Assembly: GCF_900109665.1 (NCBI RefSeq)
Contig: NZ_FOAO01000018.1
Coordinates: 37,562-101,561 of the forward strand
Origin: Blastococcus sp. DSM 46786
GTDB taxonomy: Bacteria > Actinomycetota > Actinomycetes > Mycobacteriales > Geodermatophilaceae
Reading direction: 5' to 3'
Length of the DNA: 64,000 nucleotides
The stretch's first letter is position 1, and each line of letters starts with the position of its first letter. Made by a program: the position numbers and the translations under genes. Positions 1,135 through 33,937 of the stretch are shown here, piece by piece. Under the pieces are notes generated by a model. That model was not told where the DNA came from. It did not search any database and saw only the letters and a list, made by a program, of their open reading frames with translations.

Positions 1135-1634
1135 CGGGGACCGGTCTCCTTGGCCACCGGTGCACCGGTCACCGGCTCGCGCGGAGCCGCCCGCCAGGCG
1201 TCGATCAGCTTGCCCTGGAGGCCGAACATCTCCTTCTCCTCCTCGGGCTCCATGTGGTCGTAGCCCAGCAGGTGGAGGACGCCGTGGGTGGCCAGCAGCA
1301 CCAGCTCGTCGTCCATCGAGTGCCCGGCGGCGCGGGCCTGCCGGACGGCGACGGCGGGGCAGAGCACGATGTCGCCGAGCAGGGCGGGCCCGGGCTCGGG
1401 GTCGTCGGGCCGGCCGCTGTCGAACTCGTCCATGGGGAAGGCCAGCACGTCGGTCGGGCCCTTCTCGCCCATCCACCGCTCGTGCAGGCTGCTCATGTAG
1501 TCGGGGTCGACGCAGAGCACGGACAGCTCGGCCATCGGGTTGATCTTCATCTCGCCGAGCACGAAGCGGCAGACGCCGGCCAGCTCGGCCTCGTCCACCG
1601 CGATCTCGGACTCGTTGGACACCTCGACGGGCAC
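1131..1634 (-). CDS. ybeY: Endoribonuclease YbeY (rRNA maturation factor)
   Basis: This 167-residue protein has the YbeY zinc-binding motif [11 protein letters not shown] at about residues 117-127 (H-x3-H-x5-H) and the conserved TDVLAFPMD segment near residue 61. YbeY is a single-strand-specific metallo-endoribonuclease that takes part in 16S rRNA 3'-end maturation and ribosome quality control. The length is normal for the family. It lies 5 bp downstream of phoH and overlaps the following CBS protein gene by 4 bp, so the three are probably one operon. Confidence 0.96.
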
Positions 1635-1639
1635 GGTGG

Positions 1640-3850
<2,211 letters not shown>

Positions 3851-3959: not shown

Positions 3960-4781
3960 TCAGCGCCCGGTGTAGGTGGCCTTGCCCGGCCCGTCCGCGA
4001 GAAAGGAGGCGACGGCGCCGCGGAGGTCGTCGGTGGCGAAGAGCGGCCCGGAGATCTCCGGCACCAGCGCGTCGGCCGCGCGGGCGCCCTCGCGGACGGC
4101 GACGGTCGCCAGCCGCTTGGTGGCCGCGTGCGCCACGGTGGGCCCGGCCGCGACCCGGCGCGCGTACTCCCGCGCCGCCTCGGCGAAGCCCTCGTCGGGG
4201 AGTACCCGGTTCACGACGTTCCACCGCTCCAGGACGGCGGCCGGGTAGCGCCCGCCGGTGTAGACCAGCTCCTTTGCGCGGGCGGGGCCGGCCCGCTCGG
4301 CCAGCCGCTGGGGCCCGCCCATCGAGGGGGTGAGGCCGACGACGATCTCCACGAGGCCGAAGGAGGCCTTCTCGGCGGCCAGCAGGATGTCGCAGGACAA
4401 CGCGAGCTCGAAGGCGGCGGTGAGGCAGAGCCCGTGCGCGGCGAAGACGGTGGGCACCGGGAGGTCCTCGAAGGCGTTGGCCACGCGCAGCAGCCGGGCC
4501 CACAGCTCCGCGCCGCGCTGGGCCGGCTCCGGCCCCTCGGCGATGTCGCGGAAGTACGTGACGTCCACCCCGCCGGAGACCACCTTGCCGCGCGCCTCGA
4601 CCAGCACGGCTCGGGCGCGGTCAGCCCTGGCCGGATCGGTGAGCTGCACCAGCTCGGCGGCCACCGCTTCCATCGCGTCGAACGTCGCGGCGTCGAAGAG
4701 GTTCAGCGGCGGGTTGTCCAGGACGACGACGGCGACGTCGCCGTCCCGCTCGATCCGGAGGGGGGCTGCGGCGTCGGTCAT
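3960..4781 (-). CDS. Enoyl-CoA hydratase/isomerase (crotonase) family protein
   Basis: This 273-residue crotonase-fold protein has the N-terminal VAVVVLDNPPLNLF strand and an oxyanion-hole region around FAAHGLCLTAAFELALSCDI (about 114-133). SFGLVEIVVGLTPSMGG follows. In typical hydratases the two catalytic Glu lie in the regions around FELALSCD and LVEIVVG; a Glu is visible in each, but with non-classical spacing, so substrate and reaction cannot be fixed. It probably acts on acyl-CoA thioesters in fatty-acid or amino-acid breakdown. The gene precedes phoH on the same strand with a 109-bp gap and is downstream of the HIT gene. Confidence 0.85.
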   Translation of the reverse strand: MTDAAAPLRIERDGDVAVVVLDNPPLNLFDAATFDAMEAVAAELVQLTDPARADRARAVLVEARGKVVSGGVDVTYFRDIAEGPEPAQRGAELWARLLRVANAFEDLPVPTVFAAHGLCLTAAFELALSCDILLAAEKASFGLVEIVVGLTPSMGGPQRLAERAGPARAKELVYTGGRYPAAVLERWNVVNRVLPDEGFAEAAREYARRVAAGPTVAHAATKRLATVAVREGARAADALVPEISGPLFATDDLRGAVASFLADGPGKATYTGR

Positions 4782-4830
4782 GCGCCCACCTTCTCAAGCC
4801 GCACCGGGCCGGGCAGCACGACCCCGTCGA

Positions 4831-5190
4831 TCAGCCGGGCGGCCAGCCGAGGCTGCGGCCGCCGAGCACGTGCAGGTGGAGGTGGTCCACCGACTGGCCG
4901 GCCTGCGGGCCGGTGTTGGTGACGACCCGGTAGCCCGGCTCGTTGCCGTCGCCGGCGACGAGGCCCTCGCCGACCGCCACCGCGTGCGCCCCGGACACGA
5001 CCTCGCCGAGCAGCCCCGGGTCCGCGGCCGCCAGCGCACCGACGTTGCGGTGGTGCTCCTTCGGGATCACCAGCACGTGCGTCGGCGCCTGGGGGTTGAT
5101 GTCGCGGAAGGCGAGCACCCGGTCGGTCTCGTGGACGACGTCGGCGGGGATCTCACCGGCGACCATGCGGCAGAACAGGCAGTCGGTCAC
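4831..5190 (-). CDS. HIT family protein (histidine triad nucleotide hydrolase)
   Basis: This is a 119-residue HIT-domain protein. The histidine triad is HLHLH preceded by VD (residues 103-107), the HIT signature for hydrolysis of nucleoside phosphoramidates or dinucleoside polyphosphates. CLFC near the N-terminus (Cys4, Cys7) is the zinc half-site seen in the HINT/HinT branch. The PTHVLVIPKEHHRN segment is also typical. Translation starts at a GTG. A TATAGG sequence about 10 nt upstream (5199-5204) may be a -10 element, which would make the transcript nearly leaderless; this is only a guess. Confidence 0.92.
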   Translation of the reverse strand: MTDCLFCRMVAGEIPADVVHETDRVLAFRDINPQAPTHVLVIPKEHHRNVGALAAADPGLLGEVVSGAHAVAVGEGLVAGDGNEPGYRVVTNTGPQAGQSVDHLHLHVLGGRSLGWPPG

Positions 5191-5209
5191 CCTGTCGACC
5201 CTATAAGGA

Positions 5210-5258
5210 CCCCGTCCCCCTCACCGTTCGCAAGCTCACGGCGAGCCTCTGGACGGGG
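5210..5258. terminator. Hairpin between the liv operon end and the HIT gene
   Basis: CCCCGTCC at 5210-5217 is complementary to GGACGGGG at 5251-5258, with further partial pairing inside. It lies 9 bp beyond the livF stop, in the right place for a rho-independent-like terminator of the minus-strand liv operon. There is no U-tract, as is common in actinobacteria. Confidence 0.45.
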
Positions 5259-5266
5259 CCGGGCCG

Positions 5267-5985
5267 TCAGGTGCCGCTCTCGACCCCCAGGTAGGCCTGC
5301 ACGATGCGCTCGTCGGCGAGCAGGTCGGCCGCCGGGCCGGAGTGCACCACCTCGCCGCTCTGCAGCACGTACCCGTGGTCGGCGGCGCGCAGGGCGCGGC
5401 GGGCGTTCTGCTCCACCAGCACCACCGTGGTGCCCGACGCGCGGATCTCCTCGATGACCCGGAACACCTCGTCGACGATCTTGGGCGCCAGCCCCATCGA
5501 CGGCTCGTCCATGAGCATCACCGTCGGCCCGGCGACCAGGGCGCGGGCGATGGCGAGCATCTGCTGCTCCCCGCCGGAGAGCGCCCCCGCCGGCAGCGCC
5601 CGCCGCTCGGCGAGCACCGGGAACCGGTCGTACATCGCGTCGACGCGGCGCGCGCCGCCGGTGCCCGAGTGCCACGTGCCCATCTGGAGGTTCTCCTCGA
5701 TGGTGAGCGTCGCGAGGATCTGCCGCCCCTCGGGCACCTGCACCAGCCCCCGTCCGACCAGCTTGTGGGCGGGGGTCCGGGTGATGTCCTGGCCCTCGAA
5801 GGTGATCCGGCCGCCGGCCGGCCGCAGCATCCCGGAGACGGCGTTGATGACCGAGGACTTCCCTGCCCCGTTCGCCCCGACCAGCGTCACCAGCGAGCCC
5901 TGCTCGGCCCGGAAGGAGACGTCCCGCACCGCCTCGACCCGGCCGTAGGTCACCCGCAGGCCCTCCACGGTGAGGATCGGGTCGC

Positions 5986-5989
<4 letters not shown>
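5267..5989 (-). CDS. livF: Branched-chain amino acid-type ABC transporter ATP-binding protein LivF
   Basis: This 240-residue ABC ATPase has Walker A GANGAGKSS near residue 36, signature LSGGEQQMLAIARAL near 139 and Walker B VMLMDEPSMGLAP near 160, followed by the H-loop. The DEPSMGLAPKIVDEVF segment is characteristic of LivF. It would pair with the LivG half of the preceding fused gene to energise uptake through LivH/LivM. The start ATG overlaps the TGA of the livM-livG gene by 4 bp. It is the last gene of the operon. Confidence 0.93.
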
Positions 5990-7796
<1,807 letters not shown>

Positions 7797-26733: not shown

Positions 26734-26809
26734 GGAGCTCTGCCTCTGAGTGCCCTGGCACTCAGAGGCAGACTCCGCCCGAGGTGCACCTACCGGAGGC
26801 GGCGGGTGT
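26734..26809. repeat. Dispersed repeat copy B, overlapping the selB stop
   Basis: This is the second copy of the element at 25121-25199, sharing its ends (GGAGCTCTGCCTCTG and GAGGTGC...AGGCGGCGGGTGT). The central part forms a perfect 15-bp hairpin, TCTGCCTCTGAGTGC (26739-26753) with GCACTCAGAGGCAGA (26758-26772). The right end includes the last codons and TAG stop of selB. Confidence 0.7.
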
Positions 26810-28535
26810 TGTCCGGCAGCCGCTGGGTCACGCCCCGGCCGTCCAGCCATTCCATGAGCGGGACGGCGACCCGCCGGCTGGTCCCCCACGCCTGCCTGGC
26901 CTGGCTGAGGCTGAACGGCTGCGGCACCGCGGCGAGCCGCTCCCGTGCGACCGCCTCGATGCCGGGCGCCAGGTAGACCCCCTCCCCGACGCGCACGAGC
27001 TGCCCGCTCCGCACGGCGGCGGCGAGCTCGCGGCCACCCAGCCCGGCGGCCACCAGGTCCGGGGCCTCCGGGGCGGCGAAGGGATCGGCGGCCAGCCGGG
27101 CACGGACGGCGTCGACCGCCCGCTGCACCTCCGGCGGCAGCTCGGGCGCGCCGTCGACGACCCGCCCCTCACGCAGCACCAGCGGCTCGCGGACGAGCGC
27201 GGGGACCAACTCGGCGTCGGGCAGCTCCAGCGCCCGGCGCACCACCTCCGACGGCGGCCCGGGCTCCAGCGGCCGCAGGCGCCGGTAGCGCGCGACGATC
27301 TCGGGCAGCCGGGCGGCGAGGTCGTCGGCGAGCCCGGCGGCCAGCAGCCACGGCCCGTTCCTCGTCGCCCCGGCGGGCAGCGGCCAGCCCATCGCAGCGA
27401 AGTCGGCGGCGCGGACGATGCGGCGGCGGGCCAGGGCGGCGGACGCGCCGTCCGCCCCGTCCGGCTGGGCGACCAGCTCGGCGGCCCGCTGGCGCGCGGC
27501 GCCGCGGCGCCGCAGCTCGGGCGGGTCGACGTCGCGCACGTCGGCACCGAGCACCCTGCGGGCACCGGGGTCGCGCAGCAGCAGCCGGTCGCCGATCCGC
27601 AGCGGCAGCGGCGAGGCCAGGCGCAGGCGCACCGCCGCGCCGTCGAGCGGGCGCAGCCGGGCGCCCACGGTCGCGGAGCCGACGTGCACCACCGGGCCGG
27701 CCGGCAACCGCTCGTCGGGCACCCCGGTCAGCGTCACGTCGACGACGTCGGTCAGCCGGAACGCCTCGGGCGTGAGCAGCGCGTCGCCCCGGGTGAGCTC
27801 CTCGACCGCGACGCCGCGCAGGTTGAGCGCCACCCGCGCGGTGGCCGCGGCCCGCTCGACGGGCTCGCCGAGGGACTGCACGCCCCGCACGGTCACCTCC
27901 CGGTCGCCCAGGACGAACCGGTCGCCGGCCGCGACGGCCCCGGCGGCGAGCGTGCCGGTGACGACCGTGCCGGCGCCCCTGATGGTGAAGGCGCGGTCGA
28001 TCCACAGCCGCACCGGCGCGTCGGGGTCCGGGGCCGGCAGCGCGCCGAGCAGGCGTTCCAGCGCCGCCGTCAGCTCCGGCACGCCCTGCCCGGTGATCGA
28101 GCTGACCGCGAACCCGGGCACCTCGCCCATCGACGTCGTGGCGAGCCGCTCGCGCACGTCGGCGAGCACCGGTGCCGGGTCGGCGAGATCGGACTTGGTG
28201 ACGGCGAGGAGCGCGTGCCGCACCCCCAGCGCGTCGAGGACGCCGACGTGCTCGGCGGTCTGCGCCGACCAGCCGTCGTCGGCCGCGACGACGACGAGCG
28301 CGGCCGGCACCGGGCCGACGCCGGCGAGCATGTTGCCGACGAAGCGCTCGTGGCCGGGGACGTCGACGACCGCGAGCCGGCGTCCCGAGGGCAGCGTGGT
28401 CCACGCGAAGCCCAGGTCGATGGTGAGCCCGCGGCGGCGCTCCTCGGCCCATCGGTCGGGCTCCATCCCGGTGAGCGCCCGCACGAGCGCCGACTTGCCG
28501 TGGTCGACGTGGCCTGCCGTCGCGATGACGTCCAT
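26790..28535 (-). CDS. selB: Selenocysteine-specific elongation factor SelB
   Basis: About 581 residues from ATG 28535, which gives the canonical SelB start (DVIATAGHVDHGKS, G1 motif residues 8-15). A GTG at 28565 overlapping selA is possible. G-domain motifs RRGLTIDLGFAW, DVPGHERFVGNM and TKSDL are present, then EF-Tu-like domains 2 and 3 and C-terminal winged helices that bind the SECIS RNA hairpin. SelB delivers Sec-tRNA-Sec to the recoded stop codon. In this genome the partner tRNA has a CUA anticodon, so SelB should act at UAG. The gene itself ends with TAG, followed 18 nt later by a hairpin. Confidence 0.95.
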   Translation of the reverse strand: MDVIATAGHVDHGKSALVRALTGMEPDRWAEERRRGLTIDLGFAWTTLPSGRRLAVVDVPGHERFVGNMLAGVGPVPAALVVVAADDGWSAQTAEHVGVLDALGVRHALLAVTKSDLADPAPVLADVRERLATTSMGEVPGFAVSSITGQGVPELTAALERLLGALPAPDPDAPVRLWIDRAFTIRGAGTVVTGTLAAGAVAAGDRFVLGDREVTVRGVQSLGEPVERAAATARVALNLRGVAVEELTRGDALLTPEAFRLTDVVDVTLTGVPDERLPAGPVVHVGSATVGARLRPLDGAAVRLRLASPLPLRIGDRLLLRDPGARRVLGADVRDVDPPELRRRGAARQRAAELVAQPDGADGASAALARRRIVRAADFAAMGWPLPAGATRNGPWLLAAGLADDLAARLPEIVARYRRLRPLEPGPPSEVVRRALELPDAELVPALVREPLVLREGRVVDGAPELPPEVQRAVDAVRARLAADPFAAPEAPDLVAAGLGGRELAAAVRSGQLVRVGEGVYLAPGIEAVARERLAAVPQPFSLSQARQAWGTSRRVAVPLMEWLDGRGVTQRLPDNTRRLR

Positions 28536-28555
28536 ACCGGCGGGACGGGGCGCGG

Positions 28556-29872
28556 TCACGTCCACCGGCGGGCCACCTCCAGCACGACGTCGGCGAGGGC
28601 GCCGTCGGCCCCCGGCGGGACGCTGCGCAGGTTGAGCAGCGTGCGGCCGTCCTCGACGTAGCCGACGACCGGGGTCGCGCCCAGGCGCAGCGGCTCGGCG
28701 AACTCCGGCGGCAGCGAGACGGCGGCGCCGGGCAGCGGGTGCTCGGGCGCCCCTCCCCCGCCGACCCGCGAGTCGGCGTCCACCGCGTCGGCGGCCACGC
28801 CCCCGGCCACGAGGCGGTCGGCCAGCGCGTGCGCCCGCTCCCGCAGGTCGGCGACGTCGGCGGCGAGCATCTGCTGCACCGGCGGCAGCGGGCCGCGCAG
28901 CGTCGCCTCGAGGGCGGCCAGCGTGGTCTTGTCGACCCTGAACGCCCGGTAGAGCGGGTGGCGGCGCAGGCGCTGCACGAGCTCCGCCCGGCCGAGCACG
29001 AGCCCCGCCTGGGGCCCGCCGAGCAGCTTGTCACCGCTGGCCAGCACGAGGTCGGCGCCGGCGGCGAGCGTCGTCTGCAGGTCCGGCTCGTCCGGGAGCA
29101 CCGGGTGCGGCCGGAGCAGGCCGGAGCCGACGTCGGCGACCAGCGGCACCCCGGTGCCCTGGAGCGCCGCCGCGAGCTCACCGACCTCCACCGCCCGGGT
29201 GAAGCCGCGCACGACGAAGTTCGACGGGTGCACCTTGAGCACCGCGCCGGTGCCGGGCCCCAGGGCGTCGCGGTAGTCGGCGAGCGCGACCCGGTTGGTG
29301 GTGCCGACCTCGCGCAGCCGGGCGCCGGTGCTCTCGAGCAGCTCGGGGATGCGGAAGCCGTCGCCGATCTCCACCAGCTCCCCGCGGGCGAGCACCAGCT
29401 CGCGGCCCTGCCCCAGGGCGGTGGCCACCAGCGCGAGCGCAGCGGCGCAGTTGTTCACCACCAGCGCGGCCTCCGCGGCCGGGACCGCCTCCAGCAGCGC
29501 CGCGATCGCCGCCTCCCCGCGCGGGCCGCGGCGGCCGGTGCGCAGGTCGAGCTCGACGTCGGTGGTGCCGCTCGCCGCGACCACCGCCTCGACCGCGGCC
29601 GCCGAGAGCGGCGCGCGGCCGAGGTTGGTGTGCACGACGACGCCGGTCGCGTTGAGCACCGGGCGCAGGCTGCCGGCCACGGGCGGGAGGTCGGCGAGGA
29701 CGGCGTCGACGGCGGCGTCGGGCGCGACCTCGCCCGCCCGGATCCGCTGCTGGACGCGCTGCACGGCGCTCTTGACCAGGACGCGCCCCAGCCGCTCCCC
29801 GGCCCCGGCCAGTCGGGGGTCGGCGAGCAGCGTGTCGGTGCGGGGCACCTGGCGGCGCGGGTCGGTCGTCAT
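28556..29872 (-). CDS. selA: L-seryl-tRNA(Sec) selenium transferase SelA
   Basis: The 438-residue PLP enzyme has the SelA signature NATGVVVHTNLGRAPLS near residue 75 and the PLP-binding Lys in LASGDKLLGGPQAG at about residue 282. RGELVEIGDGFRIPELLE and VHPSNFVVRGFT are also characteristic. SelA converts Ser-tRNA-Sec to Sec-tRNA-Sec using selenophosphate, as a ring-shaped decamer in bacteria. It lies 30 bp downstream of the tRNA-Sec gene and 20 bp upstream of the chosen selB start, so selC-selA-selB are probably co-transcribed. Confidence 0.96.
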   Translation of the reverse strand: MTTDPRRQVPRTDTLLADPRLAGAGERLGRVLVKSAVQRVQQRIRAGEVAPDAAVDAVLADLPPVAGSLRPVLNATGVVVHTNLGRAPLSAAAVEAVVAASGTTDVELDLRTGRRGPRGEAAIAALLEAVPAAEAALVVNNCAAALALVATALGQGRELVLARGELVEIGDGFRIPELLESTGARLREVGTTNRVALADYRDALGPGTGAVLKVHPSNFVVRGFTRAVEVGELAAALQGTGVPLVADVGSGLLRPHPVLPDEPDLQTTLAAGADLVLASGDKLLGGPQAGLVLGRAELVQRLRRHPLYRAFRVDKTTLAALEATLRGPLPPVQQMLAADVADLRERAHALADRLVAGGVAADAVDADSRVGGGGAPEHPLPGAAVSLPPEFAEPLRLGATPVVGYVEDGRTLLNLRSVPPGADGALADVVLEVARRWT

Positions 29873-29902: not shown

Positions 29903-29998
29903 TGGCGGAGGCGGACGGGAATCGAACCCGCCTGGCCGAGATGCTCGGCCACGTCGGCTTTAGAGGCCGCGGGGGCCACCAGACACCCTGACGCCTCC
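29903..29998 (-). tRNA. selC: tRNA-Sec with CUA anticodon (reads UAG)
   Basis: Read on the minus strand from GGAGGCGT at 29998, this is a selenocysteine tRNA: 8-position acceptor arm, a long variable arm (TGGCCGAG/CTCGGCCA, perfect 8 bp, 3-nt loop), the T arm GCGGG-TTCGATT-CCCGT and a discriminator G with encoded CCA (29903-29905). The anticodon loop is CTCTAAA closed by CGGC/GCCG, so positions 34-36 are C-T-A, not the normal TCA. It should decode UAG. Imperfections are a T-C mismatch at the last acceptor pair, one T-C mismatch in the six-pair D stem and a G-A pair at 27/43. It is 30 bp upstream of selA. A UAG-reading tRNA-Sec is known from Geodermatophilus and Blastococcus. Confidence 0.93.
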
Positions 29999-30643: not shown

Positions 30644-31638
<995 letters not shown>

Positions 31639-31651
<13 letters not shown>

Positions 31652-33532: not shown

Positions 33533-33847
33533 TCAGCTCACGACCTTGAGCCCGACGACGCAGCCGACGATGCCGGCCAGCAGCAGCACCCGCACCAGCG
33601 AGACCGGCTCCGCGCCGGTGACCATCGCGTAGACGACCGTGAGCACGGCGCCGATGCCCACCCACACGGCGTAGGCGGTGCCCAGCGGCAGCTCCCGCAT
33701 GGCGAAGGCGAGCCCGCCCATGCTCAGGACCAGCGCGACGCCGAAGACCACCGAGGGCACCAGCCGGGTGAAGCCGTGGGAACGGTCGAGCGCCGCCGCC
33801 CACACCGCTTCCAGCACCCCGGACAGCACCAGCACCAACCACGACAT
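33533..33847 (-). CDS. gdx: SMR-family guanidinium exporter Gdx (SugE-type)
   Basis: The 104-residue four-helix SMR transporter begins MSWLVLVLSGVLEAVWAAAL, with the membrane-embedded Glu of helix 1, and continues DRSHGFTRLVPS, the SugE/Gdx signature rather than EmrE. Gdx proteins are guanidinium/proton antiporters. The assignment is supported by the guanidine-III riboswitch ending 14 nt upstream of the ATG at 33847. AGAGGAG directly after the riboswitch is the ribosome-binding site, so control is probably at translation initiation. Confidence 0.93.
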   Translation of the reverse strand: MSWLVLVLSGVLEAVWAAALDRSHGFTRLVPSVVFGVALVLSMGGLAFAMRELPLGTAYAVWVGIGAVLTVVYAMVTGAEPVSLVRVLLLAGIVGCVVGLKVVS

Positions 33848-33860
33848 CGCGGGCTCCTCT

Positions 33861-33904
33861 GGCGCCGTCTTGTCGCACACCGGGTACGGCACCGCTCGTC
33901 CGGG
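33861..33904 (-). ncRNA. Guanidine-III riboswitch (ykkC-III) upstream of gdx
   Basis: On the minus strand the element begins CCCGGACGAGCGGTGCCGTA, followed by CCCGG and then GACAAGACGGCGCC. This matches the conserved guanidine-III core: CCGGACGAG, GCCGTACCCGG and GACAAGACGGCGC. The CCGG/CCGG and GCCGT/ACGGC pairings form the pseudoknotted fold. It ends next to the AGAGGAG ribosome-binding site of gdx. Free guanidinium should switch on expression. Confidence 0.93.
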
Positions 33905-33937
33905 AGCCGGAAGGGCTCCCCTCCACCATGGCACATG

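Follow-up and report, generated by a model that had tools for sequence, protein, structure and literature searches.

A tRNA gene with the anticodon CUA, which reads UAG, lies at 29903..29998 on the minus strand of the window (the whole 64,000-nucleotide stretch of DNA that was analysed), and it raises the question of which amino acid it delivers and to which UAG codons. It is the one tRNA that ARAGORN finds in the window. The anticodon occupies 29961..29963(-), within the loop CUCUAAA, and the claim of the sequence-only reading that this loop (CTCTAAA on the minus strand) holds CUA is borne out by the letters themselves, by ARAGORN (anticodon cta, at position 36) and by the Rfam alignment. ARAGORN labels the gene tRNA-Pyl, and tRNA-Pyl, too, is a dedicated tRNA that reads UAG, so the label and the anticodon would both suit insertion of pyrrolysine at this codon. 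However, tRNA-Pyl and tRNA-Sec differ in tRNA fold, charging route and proteins, and Rfam scores the gene as tRNA-Sec (RF01852; 67.7 bits against a gathering score of 47, E 2.2e-12) over the full model (1-91 of 91), which is not the tRNA-Pyl fold. The neighbours are selA, selB and selD, and UAG codons stand at the Sec positions of Sec-type enzymes; against this evidence the pyrrolysine reading is scarcely credible, and the earlier identification of the gene, hereafter selC, as tRNA-Sec holds.

The Rfam alignment and a table of base pairs give selC the long variable arm, long acceptor helix and six-pair D stem of RF01852, and its 3' end, GCCA, is encoded. The usual tRNA-Sec anticodon, UCA, is absent, and selC still counts as tRNA-Sec because CUA is an already known variant. 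The structure rests on the covariance model, since folding the sequence alone for minimum energy does not give a cloverleaf. A search of the window for the motif GGTG-N11-CTCTAAA-N20-48-GGTTCGANTCC gives a single match, and 100 shuffles give none. Mismatches interrupt several stems (acceptor U8/C, D-stem U/C, the first anticodon-stem pair C/C and the next pair G/A). The sequence-only reading had named three of these as unusual and had not listed the G/A pair; all three are present, but they are not peculiar to this gene. Among 118 loci that passed a length and end filter there are 33 distinct CUA and six distinct UCA sequences from the family, and both sets have the mismatches with small variation, so the mismatches are unlinked to the codon change. 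The anticodon arms of the two sets differ in the anticodon and in the pair that closes the loop, which is C-G with CUA and T-A with UCA.

The genes beside selC provide the rest of a selenocysteine system. selA (L-seryl-tRNA(Sec) selenium transferase; 28556..29872(-); TIGR00474, 421 bits, cut-off 267.9) and selB (selenocysteine-specific elongation factor, with TAG as its own stop; 26790..28565(-); TIGR00475, 289 bits, cut-off 242.25) share the strand of selC, and selD (selenide water dikinase; 30644..31651(+); TIGR00476, 390 bits, cut-off 125) is divergent on the opposite strand; all three exceed their NCBIfam cut-offs. We infer by homology that SerRS would charge tRNA-Sec(CUA) with serine, that SelA would turn the serine into selenocysteine with selenophosphate from SelD, and that SelB would bring the charged tRNA to the ribosome while bound to a hairpin in the message; the competitor at UAG would presumably be release factor 1, not release factor 2. 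The four components, the gene cluster and the position of the hairpin are those of the standard UGA-Sec system (SelA, SelB, SelD, tRNA-Sec with UCA, bSECIS), whereas here the codon is UAG and the anticodon is CUA.

Candidate targets occur in the same genome (4.59 Mb in 47 contigs), which kinship places, in all likelihood, in Geodermatophilaceae and probably in Blastococcus. Five in-frame UAGs stand at Sec-type positions, two in FdhA, two in UGSC and one in a weaker AhpC-like frame. PF00384 has six matches, of which two plus two tail pieces make up the FdhA genes, each with one in-frame TAG, and the remaining two have none. The FdhA Sec site reads ARI-TAG-HS, with the TAG at 56975-56977 of contig C6 and at 126177-126179 of contig C21; the C6 gene is formate_DH_Act (NF041513, 1881 bits). 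PF24696 matches two UGSC genes (contigs C16 and C14), each with one TAG before GSC. Ten matches to PF00578 include one with TAG, the AhpC-like frame on contig C26 (L310 793-1449(-)), which reads GDW-TAG-PYC; it is the weakest candidate, with 41.9 bits to Pfam and no NCBIfam match. Four queries (FdhA PF00384, UGSC PF24696, AhpD-like and AhpC-like PF00578) found no TGA-type selenoprotein gene in the genome; the candidates from these families all have TAG. Gene callers that treat TAG as a stop only would truncate such genes. The UGSC candidate on contig C14 (L263 2-1597(+)) is fused in one frame with a thioredoxin-reductase-like domain.

All five TAGs are followed by a stem-loop in predicted single-sequence folds, with the upper stem starting 12-15 nt past the TAG and the loop lying within +19 to +24. 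Both FdhA genes thus combine an in-frame TAG with a predicted SECIS hairpin, which is what the sequence-only reading had proposed to look for. Across the CUA clade, six of the seven pairs of the FdhA stem are intact in 65/65 sites, the outermost is intact in 63, both sides vary at three pairs, and the loop is GGUCU in 64 of the 65; among 30 sites from relatives, the outermost pair is intact in 12 and the other six in no fewer than 29. A compensated pair distinguishes the stems of the two UGSC genes of the source genome, GUCGUGCA/UGCACGAC and GUCGUGGA/UCCACGAC. The hairpins expected of a UAG-Sec system are therefore present both as predicted folds and as paired changes, and we infer from these models that they would bind SelB and tell Sec-UAG from stop-UAG. 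Taken on sequence evidence, tRNA-Sec(CUA) very probably delivers selenocysteine to in-frame UAG codons that stand just before a predicted SECIS hairpin.

An alternative is that this lineage has given UAG over entirely to selenocysteine and that no SECIS is needed, and the in-frame stops inside UGSC matches and the FdhA Sec sites read in the clade, all of them TAG, would fit it. Stop-codon counts point the other way. Among ORFs chosen by GC-frame selection, with Sec codons taken out of the ends, TGA ends 42/46 and TAG 4/46 in the source genome, selB being among the latter, and CUA-clade loci end in TGA in 316/365, TAG in 47/365 and TAA in 2/365. TAG still terminates ordinary genes such as selB, which means that UAG is recoded and not reassigned; moreover, hairpins with paired changes come after the Sec codons, and the AhpC-like frame of the source genome has a Sec-type TAG with TAG again as its next stop. 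Full reassignment is accordingly extremely unlikely. The sequence-only reading had also held that the switch frees UGA to become the dominant stop, and this part must be given up: UCA relatives, too, use UGA as their main stop (13/19 ORFs at their loci, with TAG at 6/19), and around FdhA of relatives it ends 10/13 ORFs, with TAG at 3/13, so its dominance is not caused by the switch. In the UCA genera of Geodermatophilaceae TAG ends 1/5 ORFs. It is possible that TAG is rarer as a stop in the CUA clade, with samples that are small.

Recoding of this kind has precedents. Mukai et al. 2016 reportedly described UAG-directed selenium in Geodermatophilus and Blastococcus. Santesmasses et al. 2017 (PMC5330540), which cites Mukai et al. 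2016, gives three Geodermatophilaceae genomes with tRNA-Sec CUA and with FDH, UGSC and AhpC selenoproteins, and another paper mentions bacteria in which Sec is encoded by UAG or UGC/UGU (PMC8124441). UAG-Sec in Geodermatophilaceae is therefore already in print, as the sequence-only reading had stated, and the present genome is a further case: it has tRNA-Sec(CUA) beside selA, selB and selD and genes with TAG at the Sec position, in the same family and with the same anticodon and kinds of selenoprotein (FDH, UGSC, AhpC) as in PMC5330540. The genome itself is a different one, in which there are two genes each for FdhA and UGSC, and one of the UGSC genes is the thioredoxin-reductase-like fusion. 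In E. coli, tRNA-Sec engineered to carry CUA yields a selenoprotein at UAG whose specific activity is about that obtained with the native pair (PMC3834832); there, too, the anticodon and codon are changed to match and SECIS and SelB are kept, but that system is a laboratory construct, whereas the present one is natural and clade-wide. The comparisons below add three points to the published family case: some genera have UCA, relatives have TGA at the corresponding FdhA site, and TAG is common to FdhA genes with different ancestries.

Anticodon and codon are closely linked across the family and the order. The CUA motif occurs in 101/112 family genomes, and the 11 without it are all nine genomes of three genera (g5-g7) plus two incomplete MAGs (G097 and G098); UCA is seen in 7/9 genomes of g5-g7 (L103-L108, L111), covering all three genera. 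FdhA gives 121 listed matches in 100/112 family genomes, and 118/118 that reach across the Sec residue hold one TAG, which is their sole stop; among 65 of these that were read, the Sec codon appears as ATA-TAG in 65/65. The stem mismatches of selC could suggest that it suppresses amber codons in general, or that it is a tRNA-Sec in decay, with TAG truncating FdhA and the TAG-bearing FdhA genes broken. However, the mismatches recur in UCA relatives, the motif is kept in 101/112 family genomes, and FdhA keeps a single TAG and no other stop in all 118 matches across the site, with the TAG as the Sec codon in each of the 65 read; suppression or decay is thus very unlikely, and a working tRNA-Sec(CUA) is the reading that we retain. 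UGSC gives 95 listed matches, 72 with one TAG, 23 without a stop and none with TGA. Three FdhA matches start beyond the Sec residue, one in G033 and two in G079, of which one has TGA. In G079 (Klenkia group) both FdhA matches (L264, L305) have frame breaks and are without the stretch around the Sec codon; that stretch may have been lost, or misassembled at the hairpin.

A control set of 49 chosen genomes, seven of them UCA members of Geodermatophilaceae and 42 belonging to further families in the order, gives the reverse pattern. Among 43 FdhA matches listed, 35/35 orthologues (68-77% identity) hold one TGA, six distant matches have no stop, and two distant matches, in the family UCA members G072 and G074, have one TGA each and read NRT-TGA-HAPS. 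Among the tRNA matches listed, the UCA anticodon itself is seen for the genomes of 27/35 TGA orthologues. In the order outside the family, the anticodon among the pattern matches listed is UCA, bar four short CGA matches and one contig of bin G230. The CGA matches look like tRNA-Ser. The G230 contig (L029; 4.8 kb, labelled Jatrophihabitans) is most likely contamination and was rejected as a CUA case outside the family, because its tRNA is of the Geodermatophilaceae type and the bin contains a UCA tRNA as well.

The change at the FdhA site is narrowly confined. When 65 TAG and 30 TGA sequences are compared over the 153 nt that surround the codon, fixed differences are limited to three positions, namely the base before the codon and the second and third bases of the codon itself. 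The preceding isoleucine is ATA-TAG in 65/65 sites of the CUA clade (L134-L163, L272-L304, L265, L008) and ATT-TGA in 30/30 of relatives (L232-L261), and it is never ATC among the FdhA sites read; ATC elsewhere makes up 845/870 and 758/794 isoleucine codons in frames counted at 31 and 29 loci, respectively. A rule that A before the codon goes with UAG is contradicted by ATA-TGA in Tsukamurella and Thermomicrobium and was rejected. Ten FdhA genes from a plasmid collection include seven with a stop (two ATA-TGA, Arthrobacter ATT-TGA and four GTC-TGA) and three with Cys, and a distant DNA search of E. coli for FdhA found none. In UGSC, the codon before TAG is GAT or GAC in 21/21 sites found.

Gene trees indicate how this linkage arose. 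For SelA, 98 of 111 input loci gave a match, and 91 of these were of sufficient length; the result is a gene tree in which g5 has no usable SelA, one genome enters the CUA rows twice (L133, L023) and two rows come from Blastococcus endophyticus. The 76 family CUA rows form one group at 100/100, and four family UCA rows (g6, g7) lie outside it. Anticodon and codon are therefore likely to have moved together, once, inside Geodermatophilaceae, with three genera keeping UCA. The FdhA tree (95 rows) is different: its 65 TAG rows need five changes, three of them forced by well-supported branches. Judged from these sequences, FdhA genes of separate descent appear all to carry TAG in CUA genomes, and it is likely that they came in with TGA and then changed to TAG; alternatively, TAG could have spread among FdhA genes by short gene conversion. 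A change from UCA to CUA needs two steps, via UUA or CCA, and no such anticodon occurs among those read. The before and after of a Sec codon change are thus visible in one family, as UCA genera and then a CUA/UAG clade, and how a codon moves becomes directly testable with matched FdhA genes that have three fixed base differences in 153. Two cases among the loci deserve separate mention. Blastococcus endophyticus has two sel loci on one contig (L088, L101), about 56 kb apart, each with tRNA-Sec(CUA) and selA. A record named "Bacillus sp. AZ43" (L020; UNVERIFIED_ORG) has a Geodermatophilaceae sel locus that falls among Blastococcus in the SelA tree, and the name Bacillus looks wrong.

A scan for the exact CUA motif in one genome per species (about 85,000 species) suggests that the move is not confined to this family. 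It returned 93 stretches, of which L046, L071 and L078 are not tRNA-Sec and were rejected; the other 90 are tRNA-Sec by inspection, three of them having been run against Rfam or being close to the window's sequence. All of the 90 are Geodermatophilaceae-type except L093, from a Coriobacteriia MAG (JAUNNF010000009.1), with a tRNA-Sec(CUA) that scores 64.2 bits in Rfam. The features of this case lie at 2319-2795, 4293-7612 and 7597-7689 of L093 and in L227 and L228. The contig has selA, selB, the tRNA, a selD-like gene (selD and other grd genes were named by eye), a grdB (PF07355) that reads ILTST-TAG-GTCTRCG and a grdA (NF040748, 275 bits) that reads ECFV-TAG-TSAGAM. Identity to the window's proteins is 33% for its SelA and 27% for its SelB, and with L093 included the SelA tree forces two changes, on an L093 branch that is very long. 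Among 138 genomes of the MAG's family there is one other match to the tRNA motif, with the anticodon UCA. On 40 kb, 37 ORFs end in TAA (27), TAG (8, one of which is the grdB Sec codon) and TGA (2), and the 61 nt after the grdA Sec codon fold no better than shuffles (z 0.99). Sequence comparison suggests that this MAG carries a second, unrelated UAG-Sec system and that at least two such moves took place. Because they would include an AT-rich glycine-reductase genome besides the GC-rich ones, a high GC content would not by itself account for them.

One family genome raises a further possibility, that two Sec codons coexist. Geodermatophilus sp. LHW52908 has a native tRNA-Sec(CUA) with selA, selB and a selD-like gene (L133) and has TAG in FdhA and UGSC. 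On its contig C17 it also has a second tRNA-Sec with the anticodon UCA (L132 1173-1263(-), 81.8 bits), about 0.3 kb from a divergent AhpD-like frame (1579-2160(+)) that reads CFY-TGA-MESH. This frame matches TIGR01926 above the cut-off and NF041238 (AhpD-related (seleno)protein) below it; PMC13188914 lists TIGR01926 as a CxxU selenoprotein. Thirteen of 231 homologues were aligned at the Sec site, where seven have Cys, five Trp and one Leu; the Trp (P0001, P0002, P0004, P0005, P0006) is possibly UGA-Sec misread by a code-4 gene caller. A seven-pair stem stands at the right distance after the TGA, and the 61-nt stretch folds no better than shuffles (z 0.15). From about 20 to 69 kb contig C17 is Geodermatophilus chromosome-like, and its left part has lower GC and transposase-type genes. 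The contig surroundings of the island tRNA have no selA or selB. AhpD-like proteins are matched in 47/112 family genomes, with TGA in this genome only; its best match in the protein database has 59% identity, and as to a donor, no AhpD-like match is listed in 394 genomes of the class at E 1e-40 and none in plasmids at E 1e-20.

There is about an even chance that this Geodermatophilus runs UAG (its own CUA tRNA, with FdhA and UGSC) and UGA (the UCA tRNA, which would have come in with the AhpD-like gene on a transposase-rich island) with one SelA/SelB set, and that, together with the Coriobacteriia case, the Sec codon is a tradable trait. If true, a tRNA travelling with its gene can re-open a codon that its host had given up. 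This reading would fall if the end of the contig were misassembled or the island were dead. The literature searched, which leaves most subscription papers outside, showed no mention of the UCA genera, the Coriobacteriia MAG or a bacterial genome with two Sec codons, and any of these may be in print. The Coriobacteriia case, the tRNA pair of Geodermatophilus sp. LHW52908 and the UAG of FdhA genes of separate descent look newer than the family case.

Farther along the window from the sel genes, a Guanidine-III riboswitch (33859-33923(-), 63.3 bits) stands ahead of a small exporter-like gene (33533-33934), which we take to be of SMR type.
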